DNA of 64,000 bases. It comes from Rhodobacterales bacterium LSUCC0031. GTDB taxonomy: Bacteria > Pseudomonadota > Alphaproteobacteria > Rhodobacterales > Rhodobacteraceae. This document shows positions 50,770 through 53,061 of this stretch, piece after piece. How positions within the stretch are numbered: position 1 is the first letter of the stretch; each line of letters opens with the position of its first letter. The stretch is taken from NCBI GenBank assembly GCA_015689735.1, contig WVSP01000003.1, positions 310,001 to 374,000 of the forward strand, written 5' to 3'. The translations under genes and the position numbers were made by a program. Below the pieces are notes generated by a model. The model was not told the origin of the DNA. It searched no databases and saw only the letters and a program-made list of their open reading frames with translations.

Positions 50770-51939
50770 TCAGATCACCATCACGTCAAGCGGCGGAAAG
50801 CCGTTGAAGCCGACCGAGGAATAGGACGAGGTATAAGCCCCGCAATTGCGGATGATCACCTTGTCGCCGGATTTCAGCGCCAAGGGCAGCGCGACGGGAC
50901 GCTTTTCGTAAAGCACATCGGCGCTGTCGCAGGACGGACCAGCCAGGATGCAAGGGCCTGTCGCCTCACCATCATGGGGGGTGACGAACTGGTAGCGGAT
51001 TGCCTCGTCCATCGTCTCGGCCAGACCCGAGAATTTGCCGATATCGAGATAGACCCAGCGATGCAGATCATCGGCGGATTTGCGCGCGACAAGCAGCACC
51101 TCGGCGGCGATCATGCCGGCCTCGGCCACCATGCCGCGTCCGGGTTCAGCCATGATGCGAATGCCCGCCGGAAAACGTGCATTGACCTGTGCCATCACTG
51201 CCTCGGCATAGGTGGTGGGATGCGGGATCGCCTCGCCGTAAAAAGCCGGGAAGCCGCCCCCGATATTGAGCAAGTCGAGATCAAAGCCCGCTTCGGTTGC
51301 AGCAGCCCATACCGCTGCGACCTGGTCAAGCGTATCGCCCCACATCATCGGGTCGCGGGTCTGACTTCCGACATGGAAGCTCAGGCCGACAGGGCGCAAG
51401 CCGAGATCGCGCGCCTGTGCCATCAAGGCCAGCGCGGTATCGCGGGTCGTGCCGAATTTGCGCGTCAGCGGCCAATCGGCCCCAGAGGCTTCGACGAGCA
51501 GGCGAATATAGACCTCGGCACCCGGTGCGTGGGCTGCGATCTTTTCGATCTCCTCGCTGGCATCGGCCGCGAAAAGGGTGATCCCCATGGCATGCGCATG
51601 GGCGATATCGGCTACCCGCTTGATCGTGTTGCCGTAAGAGATATCGGCAGGCTTTGCGCCATGGCGCAGGCACAATTCGATTTCCCCGCGCGAGGCGGCA
51701 TCGAATTTCGAGCCAAGGGCCACCAGGCGCGCAATGATCTCATCGGCAGGGTTCGCCTTGACCGCGTAGTGGATGACGGCATGGCCAAGACCCGCAGCCA
51801 AAGCACGATACTGCGCATCAACGCGATCGATCTCGATCACCAGCGTGGGACGCGCGAAATGGTTTTCGGCAATGAATGCTTCAAGGCGCGCGGATGGAAC
51901 AGGAAAAGAGGCCGAGAAATCGGCAATCGTAGCGTTCAT
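50770..51939 (-). CDS. Ornithine/lysine decarboxylase, group IV (alanine racemase fold)
   Basis: The product is 389 residues, a fold-type III PLP decarboxylase. The PLP Lys lies in HYAVKANP, with HVGSQ, NIGGGFP, EPGRGMVAE and GPSCDSADVLYE (active-site Cys-Asp) as further motifs. It makes putrescine from ornithine (or cadaverine from lysine) in the cytosol. ATG 51939 has GGAG six nt upstream. A long leader with an Arg-rich upstream ORF precedes it, as in known polyamine-controlled decarboxylases. Confidence 0.93.
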   Translation of the reverse strand: MNATIADFSASFPVPSARLEAFIAENHFARPTLVIEIDRVDAQYRALAAGLGHAVIHYAVKANPADEIIARLVALGSKFDAASRGEIELCLRHGAKPADISYGNTIKRVADIAHAHAMGITLFAADASEEIEKIAAHAPGAEVYIRLLVEASGADWPLTRKFGTTRDTALALMAQARDLGLRPVGLSFHVGSQTRDPMMWGDTLDQVAAVWAAATEAGFDLDLLNIGGGFPAFYGEAIPHPTTYAEAVMAQVNARFPAGIRIMAEPGRGMVAEAGMIAAEVLLVARKSADDLHRWVYLDIGKFSGLAETMDEAIRYQFVTPHDGEATGPCILAGPSCDSADVLYEKRPVALPLALKSGDKVIIRNCGAYTSSYSSVGFNGFPPLDVMVI

Positions 51940-52136
51940 GGTCATCTCCGACAGACCGGGGGCAATTGCCCCGCGAAATTCCAAGGGAGACGTTACCGTC
52001 GCTACGTAACTGCGATGGTTATCCCGGTTTCCCGTCTTACCACCCGTGACAGAGGCGCGTGCGTTGGCGTCTTGCGCGGCGATATGGGGCCGTTTTTTTC
52101 TCCATGCAAGATAATTTTTGATGACAAGAAAAAATT
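51940..52136 (-). ncRNA. Candidate speF-type leader RNA of the decarboxylase gene
   Basis: The minus-strand leader contains a 23-codon upstream ORF (52037-52105), a GTTAC/GTAAC hairpin, and a perfect GGGGCAATTGCCCC palindrome (51959-51972) just before the ribosome-binding site. A conserved cis-regulatory RNA named speF is known upstream of ornithine decarboxylases in alphaproteobacteria, and leader peptides sense ornithine in enterobacteria. I infer the same class here; a covariance-model search would decide. Confidence 0.55.
52037..52105 (-). CDS. Arg-rich 22-residue leader peptide upstream of ornithine decarboxylase
   Basis: ATG 52105 to TAA 52037 encodes a basic peptide starting MEKKTAPYRR, then ARRQRTRL and ending CHGW, with seven Arg and two Lys in 22 residues. 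The position about 100 nt upstream of the decarboxylase start and the Arg-rich make-up recall regulatory leader peptides such as SpeFL, although the sequence is not SpeFL itself. No strong ribosome-binding site precedes it; translation from a short or leaderless 5' end is possible. Existence of the peptide is inferred. Confidence 0.5.
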   Translation of the reverse strand: MEKKTAPYRRARRQRTRLCHGW

Positions 52137-52197
52137 TTCAGCTTTGCGGGAGCGCCCCCATCGGCACCGGGGTTTCACGCGGTCTTCGGCACCCGCT

Positions 52198-53061
52198 TCA
52201 GACCCCGTGGCTCCGGTCGTAGCGATTGGCCGGTGCAGGCTGATACCCCGGTGTCAACGCGCAGTCGAACACCTCGACCAGAAGCGGGAAACACTGCACG
52301 AGATCGGATGAATGGAGGCTGCCGCAATCACCCCCCGGACAGGCCGACAAGCCCCCCAAGAGATCAATTTCCGCCAGAAGATCAAGATGATCGCCGGGAC
52401 GCACGGGCGAAGCTTTCATGAAATACTGCCCCGTGTCGCGGGTAAAGCCCGTGCACATGAAGACGTTGAGCACATCATGGATATGCCGCTCGGCCTCGGC
52501 CACGGGCAGGCCCATCTCGGCGGCAAGCGCGCGTGTCAGATTCGAATGGCAGCAATGATGGTAGTGATCGCCCCCCGACAAAAGACAGTGGGTATAGGGA
52601 TCGCAGCGCGTGCCGATCACATCATGCACCGCGCCGCCATAAGCGTCGATGCCATACCAATCCAAGCTATCGGCCACCACGCTGGCCATGGGCCGCAAAT
52701 GGGGCAAGCTGGACCAGAGCCGATCGCCGGTGGTCACATGGGTGCCGTGCAGCGCGCGGGTCTTGCCTGAAAAGAATCGCTCTGACAGGTCATGGAGGTT
52801 CCAGATGTTCAGATCGCCAACCTGCGGGCCATCGATGCAGCGAATGCGAATGACTTGGCCCGCGCGGGCGCGAAAGCAGCGCGCCTGACGCGGGGGGACC
52901 AGTACGGTATCGCGCAACACAAGCGCACGGCGCGCGCCATCGATCACCGCCTCGGGCAGCGCAGGGAGGGTTGCAACCGGGTAGCAAATGACAGGCGCAA
53001 TGGCCGCGCGCGCGGCACCATCGGCGGGTGGGGGCGTTTCCTTGGGTCGGCGGTTGGGCAT
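52198..53061 (-). CDS. DUF1989 / urea carboxylase-associated family protein
   Basis: The product is 287 residues with DUF1989 core motifs: PPRQARCFRARAGQVIRI, DGPQVGDLNIWNLHDLSERF, DVIGTRCDPYTHCLLSGGD and HHCCHSNLTRAL, where Cys/His residues may bind metal. Paired relatives act as carboxyguanidine deiminase in guanidine breakdown, but here a single gene stands without urea carboxylase, so its substrate is unknown. It precedes the decarboxylase on the same strand; amine or guanidino metabolism is a reasonable guess. Confidence 0.85.
   Translation of the reverse strand: MPNRRPKETPPPADGAARAAIAPVICYPVATLPALPEAVIDGARRALVLRDTVLVPPRQARCFRARAGQVIRIRCIDGPQVGDLNIWNLHDLSERFFSGKTRALHGTHVTTGDRLWSSLPHLRPMASVVADSLDWYGIDAYGGAVHDVIGTRCDPYTHCLLSGGDHYHHCCHSNLTRALAAEMGLPVAEAERHIHDVLNVFMCTGFTRDTGQYFMKASPVRPGDHLDLLAEIDLLGGLSACPGGDCGSLHSSDLVQCFPLLVEVFDCALTPGYQPAPANRYDRSHGV

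Follow-up and report, generated by a model that had tools for sequence, protein, structure and literature searches.

The ornithine decarboxylase (ODC) gene of Rhodobacterales bacterium LSUCC0031 is preceded by a conserved RNA, real as a sequence element, that probably acts in cis as a two-state leader controlling the start of ODC translation. The case for this leader is built from its conservation, complementarity, covariation and gene context, each read at the level of sequence, in the 64,000-nucleotide stretch analysed here (the window) and in its relatives. For the control of putrescine and homospermidine synthesis in alphaproteobacteria the analysis offers two folds whose bases are named and which can be tested; if the model is true, the early codons of the enzyme are constrained by the switch in their own mRNA. 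The original prediction for this region was of a leader that hides the ODC ribosome-binding site under the direction of an Arg-rich peptide. A conserved regulatory region is there and hiding of the ribosome-binding site is its likely output, but the peptide falls away as the cause.

On the minus strand the window carries, in order, a DUF1989 gene (53061-52198), the leader, the ODC gene (51939-50770) and a TauE-type exporter gene (Table 1). The ODC assignment is based on Pfam PF02784 (1.4e-50) and PF00278, and the best PDB match is 2plj, a lysine/ornithine decarboxylase (1.9e-57); a search of the protein against NCBIfam gave no family above its cut-off. The nearest named ODC relatives, among the best 80 of 252 loci in an ODC protein search, are from Roseicyclus.

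Table 1. Features of the ODC leader and its surroundings, in window coordinates.
Feature	Position	Strand	Basis
Predicted promoter, -35 box TTGCAT	52104..52109	-	Alignment; counts of CTTG position
Predicted promoter, -10 box CATATC, 17-nt spacer	52081..52086	-	Sequence and alignment; putative
Reported 22-codon ORF, judged not to be a gene	52037..52105	-	ATG in -35 box; 2/168 leaders; frozen codon positions
5' conserved block: box A AGACGCC, then CGCACGCGCC, TCTG	52050..52072	-	At least 99% identity per position, 80 leaders
Variable hairpin separating the two conserved blocks	52014..52045	-	Spacing and folding of distinct segments
3' conserved core GTTACGTAGCGACGGTAACGTCTCC	51986..52010	-	Alignment; can pair with the 5' block or with SD/early ODC codons
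Box B GGTAACGTCTCC, 3' half of core	51997-51986	-	Alignment
Hairpin with the reported palindrome, box B-SD interval	51957..51974	-	Folding compared with shuffles
SD region GGAGATGACC	51940..51949	-	Complementary to GGU..CGUCUCC of box B (10 bp)
CGCTACG, ODC codons 2-4	51928..51934	-	Pairs with CGTAGCG 52006-52000 in the predicted SD-hidden fold
Fold-III ornithine decarboxylase, regulated gene	50770..51939	-	Pfam PF02784 1.4e-50; PDB 2plj

In the leader AGACGCCAACGCACGCGCCTCTG is followed by a variable hairpin, then by GTTACGTAGCGACGGTAACGTCTCC, then by another variable hairpin and last by GGAGATGACC-ATG. Every one of positions 1-23 of AGACGCCAACGCACGCGCCTCTG reaches at least 99% identity among 80 ODC leaders (the window and 79 others) and the bases immediately 5' are variable; this nucleotide conservation is far above chance. 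The 79 Rhodobacteraceae loci were taken from the ODC protein search (best 80 of 252) and then placed by R1, a covariance model built from 18 leaders, which matches directly upstream of ODC in all 79 named loci that have upstream DNA (the 80th, L147, has none). Across 295 genomes of the family R1 gave 96 matches, one per genome and every one preceding ODC (91 verified by tblastn, 5 by position), while the other 199 genomes gave no R1 match. Among the first 30 loci the block accompanies the 22 closest ODCs (L001-L022) and is absent from the five most distant (L026-L030). The second conserved core, GCGACGGTAACGTCTCC, is complementary to the AGACGCCAACGCACGCGCCTCTG block or, alternatively, to the Shine-Dalgarno (SD) region and the first ODC codons, and the distance from TCTG to GCGACG ranges from 17 to 75 nt in 169 leaders. 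We found no description of the Rhodobacteraceae ODC leader in the open-access literature searched, and the ODC and polyamine terms searched for are absent from PMC11109978 and PMC10043782; PMC3766115, PMC5596092 and PMC13293326 served as background.

Ahead of the conserved block lies a predicted promoter, TTGCAT-N17-CATATC, whose position is maintained across the family. In 146 of 169 leaders the tetramer CTTG lies between -44 and -28 relative to the block, as against 5.6% of 1740 control windows, and in 122 it stands 38 or 39 nt ahead of it. Transcription is predicted to start near 52074.

Folding of the first variable hairpin falls more than 1 sd below mononucleotide shuffles in 82 of 150 distinct segments. 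The palindrome GGGGCAATTGCCCC reported earlier is present inside 51974-51957, where it forms a local hairpin in the interval between box B and the SD; its letters vary and its pairing tends to persist; of 131 distinct segments, 99 fold more than 1 sd below shuffles. A GTTAC/GTAAC hairpin, also part of the original prediction, exists in the window as sequence (52010-52006 / 51996-51992), but it is not maintained in relatives (GTTTAC, GTTCAC, TTTATG and others), and because relatives break it we rejected it as a conserved element. The folding energy of the whole leader is ordinary (z -0.95).

Under the proposed mechanism transcription would begin at or just ahead of AGACGCC, and the RNA made first would fold on itself through two helices, P1 and P2, leaving the SD accessible (ON). 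The alternative is a fold in which box B, GGUAACGUCUCC, would pair with GGAGAUGACC and the core CGUAGCG with ODC codons 2-4, burying the SD and the start codon (OFF). Both folds would use box B, and each would exclude the other. We infer that both form in the cell and act on translation, and that one of them is favoured by a signal from the polyamine pathway, either a metabolite or a protein.

The evidence for the OFF fold begins with box B, which is complementary to both box A and the SD. Its pairing with the SD is preserved with different letters: CGUCUCC/GGAGAUG in the window, UACUUCC/GGAGGUA in L245, UCCUUUUUGG/CCGAGAGGGA and, with one mismatch, CGUAUCCACC/GGAGGGUAUG (L271). Over 32 leaders, with SD and start choices made by hand and seven Rhodobacteraceae leaders hand-picked for divergence, the mean energy of box B with its own SD is -13.95 kcal/mol compared with -11.95 (sd 0.44) for permuted partners (0/5000, uncorrected for relatedness), the permuted mean reflecting that the CU-rich stretch pairs somewhat with any SD; 30 distinct pairs likewise gave 0/5000 permutations, again uncorrected for relatedness. 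In Rhodobacteraceae the core also pairs with the early ODC codons, at -13.4 in its own leader and -11.6 (sd 0.18) when permuted (0/2000; 143 distinct of 170 leaders, uncorrected for relatedness). Where the core reads GCAGCG the early codons hold CTGCA in 11 of 26 leaders and a TACG-type pattern in 2, and where it reads GTAGCG the counts are 3 of 117 for CTGCA and 53 for the TACG-type pattern. The CGCTACG:CGTAGCG pairing is part of the minimum-energy fold of the window leader, and in 86 of 90 leaders the unforced minimum and the SD-hidden fold are at most 1 kcal/mol apart. An anti-SD common to two folds that exclude each other, the arrangement looked for in a translational riboswitch, is thus present as judged from sequence and the energy model.

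The SD region of the window also holds an additional ATG (ATGACCATG, 51945-51937), 6 nt upstream of the ODC ATG and in frame with it. Among 169 leaders the ATG within the SD region is in frame with ODC in 125 and out of frame in 30, and it is likely retained for its pairing with box B.

For the ON fold, P1 pairs box A AGACG with CGUCU and P2 pairs CG-n2-CGY with RCG-n-CG. In an alignment of 46 class leaders the cells of P1 and P2 together are paired in 89.0%, compared with 82.6% in shuffles and 16-57% when the helices are slid. P2 cells are paired in 99.6%, in a register picked after inspection of the data over the RNAalifold core register and the Rfam ar45 register, and favoured because of the changes at pairs 22:132 and 16:137. 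P1 is paired in 78%, a figure lowered because P1 is misaligned in the ar45 rows, and shows double changes at 4 of its 5 pairs. Cells with a double change number 29 against 9.3 in shuffles (0/500), while further pair types (10 against 8.9, reached by 156/500 shuffles) are not significant. At pair 22:132 the 30 leaders from other families have U-A and the 16 of the family have C-G, without exception, and this change may be a single event; pair 16:137 is C-G in 44 leaders, U-A in one (L217) and unpaired in one. Within Rhodobacteraceae no double change in P1 or P2 was seen among 77 distinct rows, and since both helices are nearly constant there, their support comes from the comparison between families. 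P1 is computed to be less stable than the SD-hidden fold by a median of 9.8 kcal/mol (1.4-17.9, n 90), and P1 with P2 by 12.0 kcal/mol (2.7-20.7, n 89). Because of this deficit the ON fold would have to be trapped during transcription or stabilised by a bound factor, and it is the less certain half of the model.

The element extends to other families of the class. R2, a class-wide model whose training set includes ar45 and other-family leaders, gave 59 matches in 47 of 240 class genomes; of the 240, 82 have a close ODC. By hand compilation, 35 of the 59 matches precede ODC, 15 a paralogous fold-III decarboxylase (one of the 15 was scanned by Pfam) and 2 homospermidine synthase; the others precede a glutamine amidotransferase (1) or unassigned genes (2) or lie at contig ends (4). 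The downstream gene shares the strand of the match in all 38 cases checked. Homospermidine synthase was identified by its match to PDB 4plp (6.4e-145); at L324 the element heads an hss-odc pair, and at L330 the homospermidine synthase match is partial, at a contig end. A phylum-wide set gave R2 matches in 10 of 200 genomes. A single genome among the 10 is from outside the class; its match (L321, E 1.1e-4) is weak, adjoins no recognised gene and was taken as chance.

Some of these contexts deserve separate mention. At L326 the beginning of a homospermidine synthase match (3e-5) comes after the paralogous decarboxylase, and we note as a side observation that the contexts of L316, L324 and L326 suggest a polyamine regulon. 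At L295 a strong R2 copy (E 3.2e-17) stands ahead of a class-I glutamine amidotransferase gene.

Leaders of ODC in other families carry GACGC..CGCACGTGCC..TGGCCC ... GGTTATGCAACGACG..GCGTCCTTTTTGG (26 by pattern), and a cmscan of 16 such or similar loci returned a single match, chrB-b in L230, outside the leader. In the 46-leader alignment these leaders bridge the Rhodobacteraceae element and the Rfam family ar45 (RF02347, 'Alphaproteobacterial sRNA ar45'), which resembles our element in standing at the start of an ODC leader, in an identical order of parts, and in sharing CGCACGYGCC and a G-Y-A-R-CGACGG core. R1, whose training leaders include no ar45, recovers the ar45 site weakly: at 4 of 8 loci the site is within the best 9 matches (E 0.12-0.33), and a fifth locus gives it at E 1.8. 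The two differ in that P1 is GCCC/GGGC in ar45 and GACG/CGUC in Rhodobacteraceae, and in that the Rhodobacteraceae leader has no U-run and its box B can pair directly with the ODC SD. The RF02347 model itself gave no match in the window, in the genome that holds the window or, at E<=1, in five divergent loci. The ar45 "sRNA" of Rfam appears to be one member of this leader RNA family.

The original prediction had also pointed to speF (RF00518), which like our element is an alphaproteobacterial ODC leader. RF00518 matches neither the window nor its genome, with nothing at E<=10 in 51850-52260, and an Rfam scan of the window together with a lenient scan of the leader found nothing related. Across the class speF occurs at E<=0.001 in 8 of 240 genomes (6 over the cut-off), and ar45 occurs in the same 8 genomes immediately 5' of it (L031-L038, L039-L046); the two look like halves of one ODC leader, of which the speF part is missing from the Rhodobacteraceae leader. 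According to Corbino 2005 (PMC1273637) the conservation of speF begins near a putative transcript start, and PMC2573895 places smrC45 and speF at a single S. meliloti locus. On this comparison the widespread domain would be ar45, the part adjoining speF, and not speF itself, and an RNA catalogued as an sRNA would belong to a leader.

As to what the leader would sense, it is a real possibility, short of a probability, that the same leader answers to a protein instead of a small molecule, Hfq or an RNA-binding protein regulated by polyamines being examples. This would fit the near-invariant letters, which go beyond what pairing explains, and the negative in-line probing of Agrobacterium tumefaciens leader RNA (-400 to +3, a span that may not include the whole of ar45), which according to PMC1273637 bound none of six metabolites. 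Also possible, and put forward tentatively, is that this is a hitherto unrecognised regulatory RNA of alphaproteobacterial polyamine synthesis, a new riboswitch class for a polyamine-pathway metabolite. It would serve ODC, the paralogous decarboxylase and homospermidine synthase, Rfam would hold a fragment of it filed as an sRNA, and its OFF helix would reach the first codons and so shape the N-terminal extension of Rhodobacteraceae ODC.

It is rather unlikely that the conserved domain is mainly a separate, terminated sRNA acting in trans, as ar45 has been described, with its placement ahead of ODC secondary. Rfam does file the relative as an sRNA, and ar45 copies terminate in GGGCUUUUU. PMC7717549 treats ar45 and speF as separate RNAs in Bartonella, with Bbar45 expressed independently of BbspeF, and has S. 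meliloti ar45 co-immunoprecipitating with Hfq. Against this, the window copy has no U-run after CGUCU, the sequence past P1 being CUCCCUU, box B matches the gene that follows in its SD and early codons, and 52 of the 59 class matches precede ODC, its paralogue or homospermidine synthase. P1 was also considered as a terminator in the window leader and ruled out, there being no U-run.

That the element is the published odc1 motif is improbable. As described (Brewer 2021, PMC8632094), odc1 is likewise an alphaproteobacterial ODC leader with the ribosome-binding site in one stem arm, modelled with a pseudoknot, and has a UUG start and an 11-codon uORF, its UUG two nt upstream. The ODC here starts with ATG, and the UUG start and 11-codon uORF 2 nt upstream are not seen in Rhodobacteraceae leaders, a distinction drawn from the published description of odc1. 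Among 169 leaders the ATG of GGAGATG is separated from the next ATG by 3 nt in 125, by 4 nt in 28 and by 5 nt in 2, and with this varying spacing no uORF frame is kept.

The peptide of the original prediction, said to have 22 residues with seven Arg and two Lys, has an ORF in the window from the ATG at 52105 to the TAA at 52037, with the two Lys as reported but six Arg (MEKKTAPYRRARRQRTRLCHGW*). Its ATG (52105-52103) overlaps the TTGCAT -35 box (52109-52104) and lies about 30 nt ahead of the predicted transcript start. Of 168 other leaders, 2 (L059, L146) have an equivalent in-frame ATG, open to the conserved block, and 16 have any in-frame open ATG within -39..-21; the nearest in-frame start, in 41 of 169 leaders, is an ATG at -12 inside a -10 box CATATG. 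The stop also drifts, its most frequent distance being common to just 22 of 169 leaders, and the Arg codons, being part of the RNA block AGACGCCAACGCACGCGCCTCTG, do not vary at any of their three positions. With its start in a predicted promoter, its ATG and stop unconserved and every codon position frozen, a 22-residue peptide that stalls the ribosome and remodels the leader is very unlikely, despite the ORF in the window and the uORFs of other families described below, and the region upstream of ODC most likely encodes no regulatory peptide. The original prediction held that homologous leaders without the ORF and without covariation would count against peptide and RNA alike; the leaders do lack the ORF, which tells against the peptide, while the covariation described above leaves the RNA standing. 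The SpeFL leader peptide of enterobacteria lies upstream of ornithine decarboxylase, and the Rhodobacteraceae leaders differ from it in having no conserved, transcribed leader ORF.

In Rhodobacteraceae leaders the first start codon opens ODC itself. For 25 leaders from other families we picked the first start codon by eye; it lies 52-82 nt past the CGACG core and opens a uORF in 20 and ODC in 5 (L222, L223, L235, L257 and L261, of which L257 was counted as a fusion, since its frame continues into the ODC seen in L315). These uORFs differ from the ORF of the window in sequence and in place. Several end alike, in NPLSS, PSSI, KTSI or MTSI (L229, L230, L231, L250, L247, L263, L266, L286), and such uORFs outside Rhodobacteraceae are a candidate arrest peptide for polyamine control. 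A more divergent type of ODC leader was seen in L023, L244 and L246, with CGCACC ... CACGTGCCCGCTGG or similar ... GAGGT[TA]ACGGTGCG; in L244 its 5' strand holds a possible partner for the SD (CGCACACCC / GGGATGTGCG).
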